NCBI GenBank assembly: GCA_902760315.1
Contig: CACWFV010000005.1
Location: 62,001-126,000 of the forward strand
Length of the DNA stretch: 64,000 nucleotides
Reading direction: 5' to 3'
Origin: an uncultured Bacteroidales bacterium
GTDB taxonomy: Bacteria; Bacteroidota; Bacteroidia; Bacteroidales; Bacteroidaceae
The notes under the pieces were generated by a model. That model searched no databases and was not told the DNA's origin. It worked only from the letters and a program-made list of their open reading frames with translations. A program made the position numbers and the translations under genes. Shown piece by piece: positions 37,800-45,434 of the stretch; position 1 is the first letter of the stretch; the number at the start of each line of letters is the position of its first letter.

Positions 37800-37874
37800 T
37801 GGTAGTCCCTAGGAGAGTCGAACTCCTCTTTAGAGAATGAAAATCTCTCGTCCTAACCGATAGACGAAGGGACC
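37800..37874 (-). tRNA. tRNA-Glu (anticodon TTC)
   Basis: Read on the minus strand the gene begins GGTCCCTTCGTCTATCGG, has the anticodon stem-loop GAGATTTTCATTCTC with anticodon TTC, a T arm with GTTCGACTC, and ends AGGGACTACCA. The acceptor stem pairs throughout (first pair G-U). The CCA end is encoded (37800-37802). Cloverleaf arms were checked by eye. Confidence 0.93.
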
Positions 37875-38772: not shown

Positions 38773-39342
38773 CTACTTGATGAGTGTTAGCATACGCTTC
38801 GCATCCTCGTCGCCATCCTTGGCGTCGTCCTTGATTTTCTGGAGTATCTTGTCACCACCCTTCTCGTTCTTGACGGCTTTCTTCAGGTACGAACGGGCCT
38901 TCTTCTCGTCGGCAGTCACGCCCTTGCCCTTCATATAGGCCTTGCCCAACTGGTACTGCGCATCGGCATTCTCTTGGCGTGCGGCCTGTTCGAACAGAAC
39001 AATGGCCTTCTTGCGGTCTTTTTCCACGCCTTCGCCATCCTTGTAGGCCTTGCCCAACTGGTACTGAGCCTTGTGGTAACCCTGATTGGCGGCCTTCTGA
39101 TACCACACCACGGCCTGGGCATCGCTCTCAGCCACGCCGCGCCCTTTCTCGTAGCAGCGCCCCAGCCGGTACTGGGCCTTCTTGTGACCTTTCTCGGCGG
39201 CAGCCTTCAGCTTTGGGAAAGCCTGTTCATACTTTTTAGCGTCATACAAGGCCTTGCCCTCACGATAGAGTTTCTCGGCCGATTGTGCCGTGGCCGTCAG
39301 TGCGACAACAGCCAGCAGCAGCGTCATAACTATCTGTTTCAT
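38773..39342 (-). CDS. Secreted Sel1-repeat protein
   Basis: A 189-residue protein with signal peptide (MKQIVMTLLLAVV ... TATAQ). ATG 39342 is chosen for the signal peptide; ATG 39351 (adding MIR) is equally possible given the promoter, whereas longer forms would begin upstream of it. A TPR-like lead (YREGKALYDAKKYEQA) is followed by three Sel1 repeats: AQYRLGRCYEKGRGV, AQYQLGKAYKDGEGV and AQYQLGKAYMKGKGV. Such proteins are scaffolds for protein contacts; partner unknown. It ends in an acidic/basic stretch (KIKDDAKDGDEDAKRML). Its promoter shares a two-copy GCTGA operator with the two operons to its right. Confidence 0.85.
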   Translation of the reverse strand: MKQIVMTLLLAVVALTATAQSAEKLYREGKALYDAKKYEQAFPKLKAAAEKGHKKAQYRLGRCYEKGRGVAESDAQAVVWYQKAANQGYHKAQYQLGKAYKDGEGVEKDRKKAIVLFEQAARQENADAQYQLGKAYMKGKGVTADEKKARSYLKKAVKNEKGGDKILQKIKDDAKDGDEDAKRMLTLIK

Positions 39343-39365
39343 CCTTATCATTTTTTTGTACGCTG

Positions 39366-39397
39366 CAAAGGTAACGCTTTTCCACTGTTCCGCCAAA
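39366..39397 (-). promoter_or_regulatory. Promoter of the Sel1-repeat gene
   Basis: Minus strand TTTG (39394-39397), a 20-bp spacer and TACCTTTG (39366-39373). The -33 box is directly preceded by GCTGAAATCA, part of the shared operator. Confidence 0.75.
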
Positions 39398-39428
39398 TGA
39401 TTTCAGCAGAATTCGGGATTTTCTCAGC
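39398..39428 (-). promoter_or_regulatory. Two-copy GCTGA operator, Sel1 promoter
   Basis: On the minus strand GCTGA occurs with its first base at 39428 and again, as GCTGAA, at 39407: a 21-bp period. The second copy starts 34 bp before the -7 box, as at the two other promoters of this region. Confidence 0.55.
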
Positions 39429-39450
39429 GAGGCGTGCATAACTAATTATA

Positions 39451-39490
39451 GGTACACACATTATTAAATAGGTATACACCTTATTGAAAG
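39451..39490 (+). repeat. Imperfect 20-bp direct repeat
   Basis: Two adjacent 20-mers starting GGTACACACATTATT (39451) and GGTATACACCTTATT (39471) share 15 of 20 bases. They lie midway between the two divergent promoters and could be a second regulator site. Confidence 0.5.
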
Positions 39491-39571
39491 AGGCGCACGT
39501 ATGAGCGAAAAAACAATAGTACTCTAAGGGGTAGCGTAACGGTTCTGAGACGAAAGGGCCTGATGGCTTTT

Positions 39572-39600
39572 GCTGATAAAAACAGGCTGTTGGCTGAATA
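39572..39600 (+). promoter_or_regulatory. Two-copy GCTGA operator, small-protein/beta-helix operon
   Basis: GCTGA at 39572 and GCTGAATA at 39593, 21 bp apart. The second copy starts 34 bp before TACCTTTG, the same distance as at the Sel1 and VTC promoters. The stretch from 39561 (TGATGGCTTTTGCTGA) also resembles the sequence before the VTC promoter. Confidence 0.55.
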
Positions 39601-39602
39601 AA

Positions 39603-39634
39603 GTTGGCCGCCGGGCACCAAAACACTACCTTTG
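39603..39634 (+). promoter_or_regulatory. Promoter of the 39689 operon
   Basis: GTTG (39603-39606) as a weak -33 box, a 20-bp spacer and TACCTTTG (39627-39634), 54 nt before the ATG. Confidence 0.7.
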
Positions 39635-39688
39635 CAAGTAAGAACACTATAACAAGAACACGTAGAACAAATCCAAACTACACGCACT

Positions 39689-40075
39689 ATGAAACAATTC
39701 CTCGTATTTTGCGTCGTGAGCCTTCTGAGTGTCTCACATAGCCGGGCTACCGACTTCGACTACCCCTACCTGACGTTTGTCACCACCGACGGCACCAAGA
39801 CCTCGGTCAGCGTGGCTTCGCTCACCATCAGCCTGGCCGACGGCACGCTGACGGCCGGCGGAAAGACCTTCAGCCTGGCCGGACTGGACAAGATGTACTT
39901 CTCGGCATCGGGCGAGACAACAGGCATCTCGGTCGTCCAGAACTCGCAGCTGGTCATCGACGACGAGGCCGAGATATTCGACCTGCAGGGCCGCAAGGTC
40001 AGCAAGAGTCAGATGCAGCACGGCATCTATGTAGTGAAGACAAAGAACGGAACCTTTAAAGTGAACATGAAATGA
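39689..40075 (+). CDS. Small secreted protein with C-terminal tail, unknown function
   Basis: A 128-residue protein with signal peptide (about 1-20). Residues about 25-70 (LTFVTTDGTKTSV ... TLTAGGKTFSLAGLDKMYFS) form a short beta-rich module that reappears in altered form at the start of the next protein (TDGTTLTVMGKSFTLADVASIAV). The end is the Prevotella-type tail (IFDLQGRKVSK ... HGIYVVKTKNG). It consists almost only of this module plus the tail, so it may be a small surface or outer-membrane-associated partner of the beta-helix protein. Its stop overlaps the next start (ATGA), implying coupled translation. Confidence 0.75.
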   Translation: MKQFLVFCVVSLLSVSHSRATDFDYPYLTFVTTDGTKTSVSVASLTISLADGTLTAGGKTFSLAGLDKMYFSASGETTGISVVQNSQLVIDDEAEIFDLQGRKVSKSQMQHGIYVVKTKNGTFKVNMK

Positions 40076-41934
40076 AAAAGATACTAACCATACTATCCGC
40101 CCTGTTGACCATCACGGCCGGAGCACAAACCCTGAACGTCACGGTAGGCAATGTGGTCTACCAGTTTCCTGCCACCCAGACGGGCGACATGACCTTTACC
40201 GACGGCACCACACTGACCGTCATGGGCAAGTCGTTCACGCTGGCCGACGTCGCAAGCATCGCTGTTGACGACAGCGAAGTGACTGATAATCTGGTGAGCA
40301 TCGTCTACGGCGCCTCATCAGCTACGGTCTACGTGGCCGGCAACGTGGCACAGTACGTGACGCCCTCCGTCAGCGGTGCCCACGTCACCATTACGCAGTC
40401 GAACACCGACGCCGTCGACAACGACGAGATAACCTACCAGCTCTCCGGTTCCACCACCGACGGTTCGCTGGTGCTCGGCGGCTCCTACAAGTGTACCGTG
40501 GCGCTGGCCGGTGTCACGCTGACCAATCCCAGCGGTGCAGCCATCAACATCACCAACTCCAAACGCATACAACTGAGCGCCAAGAAAGGCACCACCAACA
40601 CGCTGGCCGACGGCAGCGGCTCGCAGAAGGCCTGCATCTACAGCAAAGGGCAGTTGCAGCTGCAGGGCAACGGCACGCTGAACGTCGCGGGCAACTACAA
40701 GCATGCCATCAAGTCGGCATCGTATATAGAGATGAAGAACCTGACGCTGAACATCACTGCTGCCGTGGGCGACGGCATCAACTGCGAGGAGTACCTGCTC
40801 CTGAAGAGCGGCACCGTGACCATCAGCGGTGTGGGCGACGATGGCATCCAGTGCGACTTGGGCGGCACGGCGTCTACCGGCCAGACCACCGACCACGAGG
40901 ATGAAGACACGGGCAACATCTACATAGAGGGCGGCACGCTGACGGCCACCATCACGGCGGCAGCCTCGAAGGGACTGAAGGCCGAAGGCGACTTGCTAAT
41001 CAGCGGCGGCACCCTCAACGTCACCACCACGGGCACGGGCGCTTACGACAGCGACGAGCAGGACGCCAAAGGCTGTGCGGCACTGAAGAGCGACGGCAAC
41101 ATGACCATCGCGGACGGCACGCTGACGTTGAAGTCGACAGGCTCCGGCGGCAAGTGCGTCAAGTGTGACGGCGCGCTGACCATCAGCGGTGGCACCATCA
41201 CGGCCCAGTCCACGGGCTCGCAGTATAAGTACAGCAGCAGCGCCACGGCCTCGCCCAAGTGCATCAAGAGCGACGGGGCCATGACCATCAGCGGCGGCAG
41301 CATCACGGCCTCGTCCTCTAACCACGAGGGCATCGAGTCGAAGAGCACGCTGACCATCAGCGGCGGCTACGTCTACGTCACCTCCAAAGACGACGCCATC
41401 AACTCAGCCGGCGACCTGACGATAACAGGCGGCTACGTCATGGCCAGTGCCAGCGGCAACGACGGCATCGACGCCAATGGCAACTGCTACATCAAAGGCG
41501 GCAACGTGGTGGCCATAGCCTCCGTTCAACCGGAAGTAGGCATCGACGCCAACACCGAGGGCGGCAAGCAGCTCTACATCACGGGCGGCAACGTGGTAGC
41601 CATCGGCGGTTTCGAGAGCGGTGCCAGCATCACGGGCGGCACGGCTAAGTCGGCCAGCTACAGCAAGAGTACCTGGTACGGACTCTCCAATGGTTCCGAG
41701 CAGGCCTTTGCCTTCAAGGTTCCCTCCAACAGTTCCATGGGTTCCACCATGGCCGTTTACACCACTGGCACCGCGGCGCTCAGCAAGGGCGTGACAGGCA
41801 GCGGCGACAGTTTCTGGAGCGGCAATGGCTACGCGGCGTTCAGCGGTGGCAGCAGCGTAACGCTCAGCAGCTACTCCGGTGGCGGTGGCCAGCCCGGTGG
41901 CGGAGGCCCCGGCGGTGGCGGCCGCGGCTGGTAG
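40072..41934 (+). CDS. Cthe_2159-type beta-helix carbohydrate-binding protein with Gly-rich tail
   Basis: A 620-residue secreted protein. Signal peptide (about 1-18, GAQ), a short N-terminal module shared with the preceding small protein (about 20-65), then a long right-handed beta-helix (about 85-540) made of repeats such as TISGGTI, TISGGSI and TISGGYV. This pattern fits the Cthe_2159 family, named after a Clostridium thermocellum protein that binds polygalacturonate. After about residue 545 there is a beta domain and a Gly-rich end (GGGGQPGGGGPGGGGRGW). It is homologous to the lipoprotein at 44298. No enzyme motif was recognised; a ligand-binding or scaffold role is likely. Confidence 0.82.
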   Translation: MKKILTILSALLTITAGAQTLNVTVGNVVYQFPATQTGDMTFTDGTTLTVMGKSFTLADVASIAVDDSEVTDNLVSIVYGASSATVYVAGNVAQYVTPSVSGAHVTITQSNTDAVDNDEITYQLSGSTTDGSLVLGGSYKCTVALAGVTLTNPSGAAINITNSKRIQLSAKKGTTNTLADGSGSQKACIYSKGQLQLQGNGTLNVAGNYKHAIKSASYIEMKNLTLNITAAVGDGINCEEYLLLKSGTVTISGVGDDGIQCDLGGTASTGQTTDHEDEDTGNIYIEGGTLTATITAAASKGLKAEGDLLISGGTLNVTTTGTGAYDSDEQDAKGCAALKSDGNMTIADGTLTLKSTGSGGKCVKCDGALTISGGTITAQSTGSQYKYSSSATASPKCIKSDGAMTISGGSITASSSNHEGIESKSTLTISGGYVYVTSKDDAINSAGDLTITGGYVMASASGNDGIDANGNCYIKGGNVVAIASVQPEVGIDANTEGGKQLYITGGNVVAIGGFESGASITGGTAKSASYSKSTWYGLSNGSEQAFAFKVPSNSSMGSTMAVYTTGTAALSKGVTGSGDSFWSGNGYAAFSGGSSVTLSSYSGGGGQPGGGGPGGGGRGW

Positions 41935-41949
41935 GGCGACAAGGAATTC

Positions 41950-41980
41950 GCTGAGCAATGATGGTTTTTCGCTGAATAGA
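41950..41980 (+). promoter_or_regulatory. Two-copy GCTGA operator, VTC operon
   Basis: GCTGA at 41950 and GCTGAATA at 41971, 21 bp apart, touching the -33 box. Geometry is identical to the two other promoters in this region. Confidence 0.6.
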
Positions 41981-42012
41981 TTTGCTCCTTTTGAAAGAAA
42001 AGATTACCTTTG
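41981..42012 (+). promoter_or_regulatory. Promoter of the VTC-DUF4956-DUF2490 operon
   Basis: TTTG (41981-41984), a 20-bp spacer and TACCTTTG (42005-42012): a complete Bacteroidota promoter. It lies 14 bp before ATG 42027, giving a very short leader, and shows that an in-frame TTG at 41982 cannot be the start. Confidence 0.8.
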
Positions 42013-42026
42013 CACCCGCTAACAAG

Positions 42027-42788
42027 ATGAAACAGAAAACAAGTATGACTGACCTACTGAACAGTTTTGCACCCATATCGCTGGAACAGATGTCGAGCGT
42101 GAAGCTGATGAACCGTACCGACACGAAGTTCGTCACCACCACCGAGCGGCTGCGGCAACTGCTGCAGATGGCTCTCAAGGACTACTACATTCAGGAGATT
42201 GACGGCCAGCGCAACCTGGAGTACGACACGACGTACTTCGACACCACCCAGTTCGACATGTACAGCGAGCACCAGCACAACCACGCCAACCGGCAGAAGA
42301 TTCGCTTCCGCACCTACTGCGTTTCAGGGTTGCAGTTCATGGAGGTGAAAACCAAGAACAATCACGGCCGCACCAAGAAGAAGCGCATCGAGGTAAGCGA
42401 CATGGATTTGCACGACAACGACAAGCGCAACTTTATCGGCCAGCACCTACACTACGACGTCGACACGCTGCAGCCGGCCCTGCACAACCACTTCTCGCGC
42501 ATCACGCTGGTGAACAAGGCCAAGACGGAGCGGCTGACCATCGACAGTCACCTCAGTTTCTACAACCTGGTGAACGGCCAGGAGAAGGACATGGGCAAAC
42601 TGGTCATCATCGAACTGAAGCGCGACGGCCGCATGCCCTCCCCGGTACTCGACATGCTGCGCCAACTGCACATCCACCCCCACGGTTTCTCGAAATACTG
42701 CATGGGGTCGGCACTCACCAATCCGCAGTTGCCCTGCAACCGGTTCAAGCGCAAACTCATTGAAATCAGGAAAATTCTGGCAGCATGA
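42027..42788 (+). CDS. VTC-domain protein (polyphosphate polymerase-like)
   Basis: A 253-residue cytosolic protein without signal peptide. The VTC fold (triphosphate-tunnel family) is read from MNRTDTKFV, then YFDTTQFDMY, the basic strand RQKIRFRTY, EVKTKN, and ELKRDGR near the end: alternating Arg/Lys and Glu on strands that would line the tunnel. Eukaryotic Vtc4 makes polyphosphate from ATP, and bacterial VTC proteins are assumed to act on triphosphate or polyphosphate; no direct proof exists for this subgroup. First gene of a four-gene operon with DUF4956, DUF2490 and a beta-helix lipoprotein. The start is fixed by the promoter 14 bp upstream. Confidence 0.85.
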   Translation: MKQKTSMTDLLNSFAPISLEQMSSVKLMNRTDTKFVTTTERLRQLLQMALKDYYIQEIDGQRNLEYDTTYFDTTQFDMYSEHQHNHANRQKIRFRTYCVSGLQFMEVKTKNNHGRTKKKRIEVSDMDLHDNDKRNFIGQHLHYDVDTLQPALHNHFSRITLVNKAKTERLTIDSHLSFYNLVNGQEKDMGKLVIIELKRDGRMPSPVLDMLRQLHIHPHGFSKYCMGSALTNPQLPCNRFKRKLIEIRKILAA

Positions 42789-42854
42789 CAAGCGCCAGCA
42801 CTATCTATAAAAAAACAACACACAACGACTACACACACAAAAAACGGAATAATT

Positions 42855-43538
42855 ATGGAGAATTTGTTTTCTATCACCTTTGGTGACACCATGATAAGGT
42901 TTCTTATCTGCCTCATCGTCAACTGGTTTATTGTCCACTTCCTGTACTTCAGGAAGGCCAACCGCCGCGACTTCTACTTTACCTTCGTCATCATCTCGGT
43001 AGCCATCTTCTTCCTCGTCTACCTGATGATGGGCATGGACCGCGGCAAAGCCACGATGGGCGTAGGCCTGGGACTCTTCGGCATCTTCAGCATCATGCGT
43101 TACCGCACCGACACGATGCCTGTCCGCGAAATGACCTATCTGTTTGTTGTCGTCTGCCTGTCAGTAGTCCACGCCATGGCCGACAATCTGGGTGTCGACG
43201 ACTTGGGCAAGATGATCGGCACACCACTGGCCGAACTCGTCACCATCGACATTGTCATCATCGGCGTCATCTACGCATTTGAGAGACTGCTGAAGGTCGA
43301 CGCCTCAAAACTCATTCAGTATGACCGCATTGAACTCATCAAGCCAGAGAAGCGCCAGGAGCTCATCCAGGACATTGAAGAGCGCACGGGGCTGAAGGTC
43401 ACCAAGATTGACGTGGGCGCCATCGACTTTCTGCGCGACATGGCCATGCTGCGCGTACACTACGAGGCTGACGGCACGGCCGACAAGGAGGTTGACAACA
43501 AGATAAAAATAAAGAACTCGGAATATGAACACGTTTAA
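42855..43538 (+). CDS. DUF4956 inner-membrane protein
   Basis: A 227-residue protein with about four to five hydrophobic helices in its first 150 residues (IRFLICLIVNWFIVHFL, FTFVIISVAIFFLVYL, the 70-90 region, YLFVVVCLSVVHAMA, IDIVIIGVIYAF) and a soluble C-terminal domain (about 155-227). The block GLGLFGIFSIMRYRTDTMPVREM is the DUF4956 signature. DUF4956 genes accompany VTC genes in many bacteria, so the protein is probably the membrane partner of the VTC enzyme. Function is not established. It overlaps the DUF2490 gene by 14 bp. Confidence 0.85.
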   Translation: MENLFSITFGDTMIRFLICLIVNWFIVHFLYFRKANRRDFYFTFVIISVAIFFLVYLMMGMDRGKATMGVGLGLFGIFSIMRYRTDTMPVREMTYLFVVVCLSVVHAMADNLGVDDLGKMIGTPLAELVTIDIVIIGVIYAFERLLKVDASKLIQYDRIELIKPEKRQELIQDIEERTGLKVTKIDVGAIDFLRDMAMLRVHYEADGTADKEVDNKIKIKNSEYEHV

Positions 43539-44274
43539 ACTGCTTGTGGTAGCCGCGCTGACAGCGATGAGTCTGCCCATGACAGCCCAGAGCGAAACCG
43601 GCCTGTGGATGGAGCTGGGCGCAGAGAAGAAGCTGTCGAAAAAATTCAGCGTAGGACTGGAAGCCGACCTGCGCACGCGCAACGACCTGAAAACGATGGA
43701 CCGCTGGAGCATTGGGCTGAACGCCGAGTATAAACCGGTGAAGTATCTGAAGCTGGACGCCGGCTACACCCTGCTCAACAACAACTTCCGCGAGGACGTG
43801 AGTTACAATGCCGACGGGTCGTACAACAACTGGCGCCCCTCTTACTGGGGCATCCGCCACCGCGTGAACGCTTCTGTCACCGGCACGTACAAGTTTCAGA
43901 ACAACCTGCGCATTTCGCTGCGCGAGCGCTGGCAATACACCTACCGCCCGGAGAAGACCGTCACACGCTGGGACTTCGACAACTCCTGGTGGGAAGACAA
44001 GGTGCGCGGCGGCAAGGGCAAGAACCAGTTGCGCTCCCGTCTGCAGCTGGAGTACGACAAGAAAGGGGCGCTCTTCACCCCATACGCCAACGTGGAGCTG
44101 TACAACTCGTGGGCCGTGGAAAAGATTCGCTACACCATTGGCACCGACTACAGTCCGTCAAAGCAGCATACGTTCAGCCTCTTCTACCGCTATCAGAACA
44201 TGAAGAATGTAGACGTTGACGAGTACGACCCCGACATGCACTATATCGGTGTGGGCTATAAGTTCAAATTCTAA
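43525..44274 (+). CDS. DUF2490 predicted outer-membrane beta-barrel
   Basis: A 249-residue protein with signal peptide (about 1-19, MTAQ) and then repeated amphipathic beta strands (GLWMELGAEKKL, FSVGLEADLRTRND, LRISLRERWQYTYRP, LRSRLQLEYDKKG) ending MHYIGVGYKFKF, a terminal aromatic residue typical of barrel proteins. This fits DUF2490. It may be a pore or anchor in the outer membrane for the product or proteins of this operon. Overlap with the DUF4956 frame implies coupled translation. Confidence 0.8.
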   Translation: MNTFKLLVVAALTAMSLPMTAQSETGLWMELGAEKKLSKKFSVGLEADLRTRNDLKTMDRWSIGLNAEYKPVKYLKLDAGYTLLNNNFREDVSYNADGSYNNWRPSYWGIRHRVNASVTGTYKFQNNLRISLRERWQYTYRPEKTVTRWDFDNSWWEDKVRGGKGKNQLRSRLQLEYDKKGALFTPYANVELYNSWAVEKIRYTIGTDYSPSKQHTFSLFYRYQNMKNVDVDEYDPDMHYIGVGYKFKF

Positions 44275-44297
44275 ACACAGCAAAAACAGATTACACG

Positions 44298-45434
44298 ATG
44301 AAGAAAACACTATTTTGCCTCATGGTTGCGATAGCACTCGTCGGTTGCCAGAACGACGACAGCGACTTCAGCGCATATACTGACGGAGAGGCTACGGCTG
44401 ACAACGCCATCTACATCCATTATAATGGTACGAGCGTCAGCGTCACAGGCGACACCAACGGCTATGTCAGCACCAGCGGAGCCGATGTCATTGTCAACAC
44501 GGGGTCGGCCACCGACTCACTGCTGCTGGTGCTCAGCGGCACGACCAGCGACGGTTCGCTCCTCGTCTACCGCCAGCGCAAGTTTGGCATCCGGCTGAAC
44601 GGCGTCAGCATCCATAACAGCGACGGTCCTGCCATCAACAACCAGTGTGGCAAGTCGCTTTACGTCGAAGTGGCTGCGGGCACTACCAACACGCTGACCG
44701 ACGGCTCCAGCTACGCTGACGTGACCGACAACGACGGCAATGCCATTCAGCAGAAGGGCGCCCTGTTCAGCGAGGGACAGCTCTACTTCTCAGGAACGGG
44801 AACCCTGAACGTGACCGGTTCCACGAAGAATGCCATTGCCTGTGACGACTACATCGTCATCGACGACGCCACCATCACCGCGACCTCATCGACGGGTCAT
44901 GGCATTTCGGTGAACGACGGTTTCCAAATGAACAGCGGTACGTTGAACATTGACGTCACCGGTGACGGCTGCAAGGGACTAAAGAATGACTCCACCACTT
45001 TCATCACTGGGGGCACGCTAAACATCAGCACTACTGGTGGCTGCGTCTATGACGAGGACGCTGCTGACTATAGCTCGGCAGCCTGCATCAAAGGCGATTA
45101 CGCCATCAACATCAGCGGGGGCAACATCACACTGACCAGCTCAGGCGACGGCGGCAAGGGCATCAACTGCGACCGGGACGTGGTGTTCAGTGGGGGCTCG
45201 ATGACAGTAACAACAACGGGGTCCAACAACGACGCTAAACCCAAGGGGGTGAAAAGCGACACGGGCATCATCGTCAGTGGCGGTTCATTCCATGTCACGG
45301 TGAAAAAGAGCTGGGCATGCGACAATGGCTACGAGAGTGCTGACGAGACTGACCAGGCAGCCAACTGCGTAACCATCGTGGGCACACCCGCCACCCAGAG
45401 TCTTGCTAAGAAGTCGGTGACTATCGTCTTCTAA
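44298..45434 (+). CDS. Cthe_2159-type beta-helix lipoprotein
   Basis: A 378-residue protein with lipobox (LVGC, about residue 17) and an acidic run right after it (CQNDDSDFS), which resembles the Bacteroidota surface-export signal, so it is probably on the outside of the cell. The body has beta-helix rungs (FITGGTLNIST, INISGGNITLTS, VVFSGGSMTVTT, IIVSGGSFHVTV) homologous to the 620-residue protein at 40072; both share GTTNTL(A/T)DGS and GTLNV. It is the last gene of the VTC operon, 23 bp after DUF2490, and overlaps murF tail-to-tail by 4 bp. Confidence 0.82.
   Translation: MKKTLFCLMVAIALVGCQNDDSDFSAYTDGEATADNAIYIHYNGTSVSVTGDTNGYVSTSGADVIVNTGSATDSLLLVLSGTTSDGSLLVYRQRKFGIRLNGVSIHNSDGPAINNQCGKSLYVEVAAGTTNTLTDGSSYADVTDNDGNAIQQKGALFSEGQLYFSGTGTLNVTGSTKNAIACDDYIVIDDATITATSSTGHGISVNDGFQMNSGTLNIDVTGDGCKGLKNDSTTFITGGTLNISTTGGCVYDEDAADYSSAACIKGDYAINISGGNITLTSSGDGGKGINCDRDVVFSGGSMTVTTTGSNNDAKPKGVKSDTGIIVSGGSFHVTVKKSWACDNGYESADETDQAANCVTIVGTPATQSLAKKSVTIVF

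Follow-up and report, generated by a model that had tools for sequence, protein, structure and literature searches.

What does an operon do that joins a polyphosphate polymerase-like VTC-domain protein to a DUF4956 membrane protein, a DUF2490 predicted outer-membrane barrel and a Cthe_2159 beta-helix lipoprotein? The question is raised by a 64,000-nucleotide stretch of contig CACWFV010000005.1 from an uncultured Bacteroidales bacterium, the whole of which we call the window. An earlier note on this DNA had offered the hypothesis, which keeps that standing here, that a phosphate-rich polymer is coupled to the beta-helix proteins. All seven genes that it named are present at the coordinates given below, as judged from the list of open reading frames (ORFs) and a Pfam scan of the seven window proteins. 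We find that the operon represents a real, widely conserved VTC-type system, consisting of a VTC-DUF4956 core, an outer partner that is inherited and a surface part that is swapped, and that it is common in rumen and gut Bacteroidales.

The core unit occupies 42027-45434 and comprises VTC, DUF4956, DUF2490 and the Cthe_2159 lipoprotein, preceded by a promoter:

41981..42012, plus strand: core-operon promoter of the Bacteroidota type, TTTG-N20-TACCTTTG, an exact match upstream of VTC
42027..42788, plus strand: VTC-domain protein, 253 amino acids, soluble, predicted polyphosphate polymerase (PF09359, E 3.8e-31, profile positions 1-233 of 235)
42855..43538, plus strand: DUF4956 inner-membrane protein, predicted translocator (PF16316, E 2.5e-49)
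43525..44274, plus strand: DUF2490 outer-membrane barrel, predicted exit pore (PF10677, E 8.7e-27; OMP_b-brl, 8.1e-7)
44298..45434, plus strand: Cthe_2159 beta-helix lipoprotein, predicted surface acceptor or binder (PF14262, E 3.1e-46)

The claim that these four genes form one operon is borne out by their spacing: 66 nucleotides (nt) separate VTC from DUF4956, DUF4956 and DUF2490 overlap by 14 nt, and 23 nt lie between DUF2490 and the Cthe_2159 gene. The Bacteroidota promoter consensus is TTTG-N19..21-TANNTTTG, and this type of pattern is matched 6 times across the whole window, where 0.22 matches would be expected. Because the promoter covers the listed TTG start at 41982, the ATG at 42027 is the likely start of VTC.

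We compared the locus with a phylum sample of 198 genomes, an order sample of 149 genomes (74 with VTC and 75 others) and 14 named control genomes; ORFs were called with a simple script, and their starts are approximate. In the phylum sample, VTC was found in 37 genomes and DUF4956 in 59, including all 37 VTC genomes, and DUF4956 lay within 5 kb of 41 of the 42 VTC matches, the exception being a fragment of 54 positions. The earlier note had staked its proposal on co-conservation beyond close relatives, and for VTC and DUF4956 this holds across the phylum. Among the control genomes, both families occurred in the same three (Bacteroides ihuae, Corynebacterium glutamicum and the archaeon Methanosarcina acetivorans). 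All distinct VTC match loci of the phylum and order searches, minus the window's own and a fragment (G022:C160), make up a set of 119 unnamed loci; adding the window and 80 named loci, which were picked by DUF4956 alone, gives 200. A same-strand VTC-DUF4956 pair within 3.5 kb is present at 194 of the 200 (lacking in L077, L163, L174, L188, L241 and L249), and the gap does not exceed 60 nt in 171 of 179 VTC/DUF4956 and 96 of 106 DUF4956/DUF2490 junctions, counts for which the script-called starts are biased to overlap. At the named loci, VTC was found in 79 of 80 and DUF2490 in 71, the order VTC-DUF4956-DUF2490 was kept in 65, and no other same-strand neighbor within 2.5 kb recurred at more than 5. 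The TANNTTTG box is found around the VTC start at 52 of the 78 named loci with enough upstream DNA, and the full promoter at 27, compared with a box at 9 of 146 DUF4956/DUF2490 starts. Among named relatives, Prevotellaceae come closest, many of them from rumen samples; the DUF4956 protein is 76% identical in isolate RUG062 (L183).

The two genes also share a history. On trees of 129 loci (117 unnamed or window loci and 12 of the 80 named), for which VTC frames longer than 420 amino acids were trimmed to their last 270 or 300 residues, as they were for alignments, VTC and DUF4956 distances were correlated at 0.936, while the maximum of 500 permutations was 0.132. In multi-copy genomes, VTC and DUF4956 from the same locus gave a mean of 0.91 (18 loci) and swapped copies 0.49 (20 swaps). 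The core of the system is VTC plus DUF4956, conserved far beyond close relatives, and we regard the coupling of the two as very probable.

The VTC protein scores 108.9 bits against a Pfam cut-off of 23 and covers nearly the full profile. Its highest 19-residue hydropathy mean is 0.52, indicating that the polymerase subunit carries no transmembrane domain, and in the Pfam scan of the 253-residue protein the VTC domain alone matched, with no SPX domain found. For a profile built from 29 relatives, the best solved match was Vtc4 (3g3q), at a weak E of 4.9e-4 and with an i-Evalue of 0.012 for the first block. Vtc4 numbers were counted along the profile blocks with chain position 15 as K200, which agrees with the construct 189-480 described in the accessible part of PMC9911596; the positions so derived are R196, R264, R266, K281, R361, E426, K455, S457 and K458. 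The window residues R30, K34, R93, R95, K108, R158, E196, S222 and K223 correspond to Vtc4 R196, K200, R264, R266, K281, R361, E426, S457 and K458. Whether the tunnel residues are kept was another point on which the earlier note could have failed. Among 194 VTC proteins, the equivalents of R264, R266 and E426, the set substituted jointly to inactivate VTC (PMC9911596, accessible part), appear to be retained in 193, 191 and 193. The counts for the other positions are 188 (R196), 191 (K200), 193 (K281), 194 (R361), 189 (S457) and 194 (K458). These further Vtc4-equivalent residues are presumably important as well. Judged by its sequence, the polymerase looks intact. At L077 (G135:C10), the VTC match lies within an open frame of ~780 residues, a possible fusion.

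DUF4956 has four to five hydrophobic segments followed by ~80 soluble C-terminal residues, as judged from hydropathy. An alignment of 63 proteins shows no variation at R84 and R91 and very little at K34, R37, R38 and R82; R84 is invariant in a wider set of 28 as well. The DUF2490 protein (94.5 bits, cut-off 29.8) belongs to a putative porin family, TC 1.B.81, whose function is termed not established in the accessible text of PMC4827864. That DUF2490 is a recurrent third gene, as the earlier note implied, is confirmed by its presence near 71 of the 80 named and 46 of the 119 unnamed loci and by its association with VTC in the order sample (43/31/16/59, p 5e-6; here and below, VTC genomes with and without the partner, then other genomes with and without it). 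A MacA/HlyD-type adaptor is found at 36 of the 119 loci, 35 of them without DUF2490; a profile of seven adaptors matches MacA at 2e-9, and a second adaptor cluster (15) matched HlyD_3. TolC-type genes were found at L110 and L114 (OEP, 8.1e-27 and 2.3e-35), and within the 13.5 kb surrounding the window locus neither a periplasmic adaptor nor a TolC-type channel was labelled. When each locus was labelled by its outer partner (DUF2490, adaptor or neither), the VTC tree required 19 changes, whereas 60 shuffled labellings required 52-64. The outer-membrane partner is thus inherited along the VTC tree.

Even where VTC is missing, DUF4956 is found beside genes of export type. We examined 20 DUF4956 loci lacking an adjacent VTC gene, 19 of them from the 22 DUF4956-only genomes and one (L284) a second locus of a VTC genome. 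At 13 of the 20 (L265-L276 and L282; ~5-9 kb), DUF4956 is followed by an adaptor-like gene and then by a gene of ~410 codons, with no VTC nearby. This occurrence of DUF4956 with an adaptor-like gene yet without VTC in relatives suggests that DUF4956 is an inner-membrane exporter. The product of the ~410-codon gene found no TolC in a PDB profile search, an hhalign comparison gave a probability of 1.6, and its identity as TolC is not established, with OEP at 0.0019, below cut-off, in one of three proteins scanned. At L284:6015-8801, DUF4956, a relative of the phosphate-selective porin O/P (E 2.5e-7) and a CotH kinase stand in a row, the sole occurrence of this porin relative among the loci checked. 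The ORF script labelled no DUF4956 at L283. At L279-L281, in genomes without VTC or CotH matches, a short DUF4956 (185-186 amino acids) adjoins a gene of 625-631 codons, similar by eye among the three.

The surface part behaves differently from the core. Both window Cthe_2159 proteins are clear members of their family (224.3 bits for a larger protein encoded next to the core unit and 158.2 for the lipoprotein, cut-off 25.8). Their nearest solved structure is 4peu/4phb (E 1.5e-11 and 5.7e-9, respectively), a chain that we take to be Cthe_2159 of Clostridium thermocellum. The lipoprotein has an isoelectric point of 4.3 and a lipobox VGC, and the larger protein has a signal peptide (both features by eye). 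The earlier note had treated Cthe_2159 as a fixed part of the module, and this did not hold up: Cthe_2159 occurs at 38 of the 80 named loci, nearer the window, and 7 of the 119 unnamed ones, whereas for CotH the balance is reversed (2 of 80 and 41 of 119). Labelling each locus by its surface gene (CotH, Cthe_2159 or neither) required 40 changes on the VTC tree against 42-52 in shuffles, so that the surface genes are nearly freely exchanged, which weakens any fixed role for Cthe_2159. No locus among the 119 carried both, where independence predicts ~2.4, and mutual exclusion is only suggestive.

At the level of whole genomes, CotH accompanies VTC closely. In the phylum sample, it was found in 37 of 37 VTC genomes and 44 of 161 others (37/0/44/117, p 8e-18), and in 55 of 59 DUF4956 genomes and 26 of 139 others; in the order sample, it was found in 63 of 74 VTC genomes and 30 of 75 others (63/11/30/45, p 1.2e-8). 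As a control, PPK1 and CotH showed no link in the order sample (p 0.30). VTC is also associated with Cthe_2159 there (20/54/5/70, p 9e-4), and 66 of the 74 VTC genomes have CotH or Cthe_2159. CotH stands at 27 of 79 order loci, against ~1.2% expected by random placement. The accessible text of PMC6712302 describes binding of Cthe_2159 proteins to cellulose and polygalacturonate and mentions CotH in rumen fungi, and that of PMC12484212 places CotH proteins extracellularly, for example in cellulosomes, with a role termed unclear.

Several arrangements of surface genes deserve mention in their own right. The window's genome has three CotH genes, two large and one encoding a lipoprotein. On contig C18 of this genome, two CotH genes stand in tandem (L263:2771-8139), with lamin-tail matches, one over the cut-off and one just below, and with C-terminal tails that by eye resemble the group's sorting tails. 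On its contig C32, genes for a histidine kinase and a LytTR regulator come after an additional Cthe_2159 gene (L179:8507-12240). Elsewhere, next to VTC-DUF4956, there is a family of proteins of ~1000 residues whose members have a CotH domain, a beta-helix or the two combined; CotH is joined to a right-handed beta-helix in L117:7939-10962 (1007 residues) and L087:7162-9861 (900 residues; helix below cut-off). Cluster 40 proteins were considered as CotH candidates and gave no match. At L120:10369-13042, CotH and the VTC core have as neighbors an arylsulfotransferase and a propeller protein, each carrying a type IX sorting tail.

Gene content and order, promoter sites, co-occurrence and residue conservation are supported directly; a mechanism can be sketched on top of them. 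We favor, at a little less than even chances, an envelope-spanning machine in which polyphosphate is made in the cytosol, exported and met by surface proteins. Soluble VTC would make the chain from ATP at the cytosolic face, as homology and the conserved residues indicate. DUF4956 would then take over the chain and pass it across the inner membrane, a step suggested by its pairing and co-inheritance with VTC and by its relatives beside adaptors; separate proteins would thereby share a task that the eukaryotic VTC complex performs in a single assembly. Exit would occur via the outer-membrane partner, DUF2490 here and a MacA/HlyD-type adaptor, rarely with TolC, in relatives. In the last and weakest step, exchangeable surface proteins may bind or use the polymer: Cthe_2159 at this locus, and CotH kinases elsewhere in the window's genome and at many related loci. 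From the residues conserved, polyphosphate synthesis by VTC is probable; for export beyond the inner membrane we see the chances as evenly balanced, and use of the polymer by the surface proteins is doubtful.

The closest known counterpart is the eukaryotic VTC complex (Vtc1/Vtc3/Vtc4), for which the accessible part of PMC9911596 models cytosolic synthesis coupled to membrane passage. Shared with it are a TTM polymerase domain with the equivalents of R264, R266 and E426 and a multi-pass membrane partner with conserved basic residues. In contrast, the window polymerase is soluble, its membrane protein is separate and of another family, SPX was not found on the polymerase, and the operon adds an outer-membrane barrel and surface proteins. 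The same core pair recurs among accessory genes of Gram-positive Pel loci, where, in the accessible text of PMC7112168, CotH, a polyphosphate polymerase, DUF4956 and DUF4832 lie beside the pel genes and phosphorylation-based regulation is suggested; at the window, DUF2490 and Cthe_2159 take the place of DUF4832 and CotH. The earlier statement that VTC and DUF4956 co-occur in other phyla is therefore sound as regards CotH; for Cthe_2159 beside VTC in other phyla we found nothing in print, though no search combined both terms. Another published locus, from Clostridium, has VTC, a 'tubulin/FtsZ' neighbor and CotH (PMC2879425, accessible part). Relatives in which an adaptor adjoins VTC-DUF4956 resemble tripartite efflux and type I secretion (MacA/HlyD with TolC) in that respect; the window locus has neither adaptor nor TolC, and its inner-membrane partner is DUF4956 rather than an ABC, RND or MFS pump. 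Cthe_2159 of Clostridium thermocellum is of the same PF14262 beta-helix family as the window copies, which stand beside VTC-DUF4956-DUF2490. PPK1 likewise makes polyphosphate from ATP but is of another family, and the polyphosphate review PMC10657179, in its accessible part, names PPK1 and PPK2 for bacteria. The absence of matches to PPK1, PPK2 and Ppx/GppA in the window's genome is suggestive, this assembly being 84.6% complete.

A number of observations weigh against the envelope-spanning machine. The match to Vtc4 is weak, the blocks carrying R361, E426 and K458 are insignificant alone (i-Evalues 760 and 8100), the tunnel is seen by sequence comparison and not in a structure, and lysine stands at the K455 position in just 16 of the 194 VTC proteins. 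Swapped copies did equally well or slightly better in 5 of 20 comparisons, mostly where both copies were alike, and the co-occurrence statistics ignore the relatedness of genomes. DUF4956 occurs without VTC in 22 phylum genomes and hence may move something else. On the outer side, DUF2490 is near only 46 of the 119 VTC loci, TolC was labelled in 2, one of five cluster-5 adaptor-type proteins scanned singly matched HlyD families (L114), and at 26 of the 119 loci the DNA fetched shows neither an outer partner nor a surface protein. Of the 74 VTC genomes in the order sample, 11 lack a CotH match and 8 lack both CotH and Cthe_2159, and CotH does not adjoin VTC in the window's genome. VTC is independent of PPK1 (44/30/49/26, p 0.50, order sample), which rules it out as a PPK1 replacement, and absences from the incomplete window assembly are soft. 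Finally, the order sample contains a single further genome from the window's family, G256; it carries PPK1, and VTC, CotH, Cthe_2159 and DUF2490 are all missing from it.

The same genes can be read in other ways. It is conceivable, though unlikely, that the operon phosphorylates a surface polysaccharide or glycoprotein. VTC would then make the phosphate donor, polyphosphate would not be the exported material, DUF4956 and the outer-membrane partner would serve the glycan, and CotH or Cthe_2159 would act on or bind it. Such a role fits the proximity of CotH, polyphosphate polymerase and DUF4956 to Pel genes in streptococci, clostridia and bifidobacteria (PMC7112168, accessible part), the sugar-polymer binding of Cthe_2159 proteins noted above and a glycosyltransferase-like cluster (8, by eye) near VTC at 9 loci; yet none of eight recurrent neighbor clusters compared with Pfam is a constant polysaccharide synthase, pel genes not having been searched for. 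If VTC instead made a reserve polymer inside the cell, with DUF4956 only an anchor and DUF2490, CotH and Cthe_2159 habitual neighbors, the 26 loci lacking outer and surface partners would be accounted for, as would the homology of VTC. We consider such an intracellular phosphate store distinctly improbable, since the outer partners follow the VTC tree (19 changes against 52-64), CotH stands at order loci far above random expectation (27 of 79 against ~1.2%), and no PPK2 or Ppx/GppA to draw on a store was found in the incomplete assembly.

A further possibility starts from the fold. TTM-fold enzymes include phosphatases and cyclases, and VTC might act as a nucleotide sensor or as a TTM enzyme resembling tripolyphosphatases, forming with DUF4956 a membrane signalling pair. 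Our literature search found no activity for a bacterial VTC protein, and histidine kinase and LytTR genes occur at 11 and 14 of the 80 named loci, as would suit a signalling function. In the N-terminal strand the motif is RxDxK or RxExK, as with R196 and K200 of Vtc4, and not ExExK, which is the CYTH phosphatase motif; together with the retention of the polymerase positions, K455 excepted, in nearly all 194 proteins, this makes such a reading highly improbable. Least credible of all is that genes common in gut bacteria happen to lie together here by chance, an idea to which we give almost no weight. The surface genes are indeed common (Cthe_2159 in 25 and CotH in 93 of the 149 order genomes), and for them coincidence may play a part. 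For VTC and DUF4956, chance neighborhood is ruled out by the pairing counts, by the content and order of loci chosen through DUF4956 alone (VTC in 79 of 80, order kept in 65, other neighbors at 5 or fewer) and by the mirror-tree and swap tests.

The envelope-spanning machine also admits an extension, in which exported polyphosphate is the phosphate donor for extracellular CotH kinases, where ATP is absent, and Cthe_2159 proteins are either CotH substrates or a polyphosphate-binding alternative to CotH. We rate this as quite unlikely. It would explain why CotH is found in all 37 VTC genomes of the phylum sample, why no locus among the 119 has CotH and Cthe_2159 together (a weak point, with ~2.4 expected) and why ~1000-residue proteins carry a CotH domain, a beta-helix or both (L117, L087); the 11 of 74 order VTC genomes without a CotH match count against it. 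A limited literature search found no paper proposing it.

If the envelope-spanning machine is real, bacteria would possess, besides PPK1 and PPK2, another family of polyphosphate polymerases, one whose product has an exit to the outside, and the supply of polyphosphate would make the question of a phosphate donor for CotH proteins testable; should the donor extension hold too, this would be an ATP-free system of surface phosphorylation. As the earlier note supposed, the Bacteroidota form seems functionally unstudied: a search that excluded most subscription papers and all preprints turned up no work on the function of a VTC-DUF4956 operon in bacteria. Laboratory strains appear open to genetic work, since Bacteroides cellulosilyticus DSM 14838 carries a locus with the operon (L241) and B. 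thetaiotaomicron has at least a DUF4956-DUF2490 pair, BT3498-99 (PMC10434189, accessible part). Iron regulation of BT3498-99 (change -7.6, p 0.175) was not used.

Next to the core unit lie the remaining elements named by the earlier note, together with their promoters:

38773..39351, minus strand: Sel1-repeat protein, divergent neighbor (start by eye; scanned as 38773-39357; PF08238, E 4.2e-29)
39366-39397, minus strand: Sel1 promoter, Bacteroidota type, from the exact-pattern search
39604..39634, plus strand: promoter-like site of the second unit, TTGG variant, upstream of ORF128
39689..40075, plus strand: ORF128, small and exported, its C terminus resembling a sorting tail (Por_Secre_tail, E 0.032, below cut-off)
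40072..41934, plus strand: larger Cthe_2159 beta-helix protein, 620 amino acids, exported (PF14262, E 2.2e-66)

ORF128, for which the Pfam scan gave no family above cut-off, and the larger Cthe_2159 gene overlap by 4 nt and form a second plus-strand unit behind a TTGG promoter-like site, a variant with 3 window matches against 0.26 expected; both this adjacent unit and the divergence of Sel1, which has a promoter of its own, agree with the earlier note. Grouping Sel1 and ORF128 with the module, in contrast, proved mistaken. Sel1 relatives occur at 8 of the 80 named loci, all among the 24 nearest, ORF128 relatives occur at 5, and neither was found at any of the 119 unnamed loci on either strand; this low recurrence rules them out as system parts and leaves them as local neighbors. 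Terminator-like sites show no excess in the window (7 against 6.5 in shuffles), and none is listed between the two plus-strand units, so that transcription may read through from the second unit into the core. The sole tRNA gene found in the window, tRNA-Glu (ttc), lies near the operon at 37800-37874 on the minus strand, and the remaining large window ORFs are, by eye, housekeeping genes.

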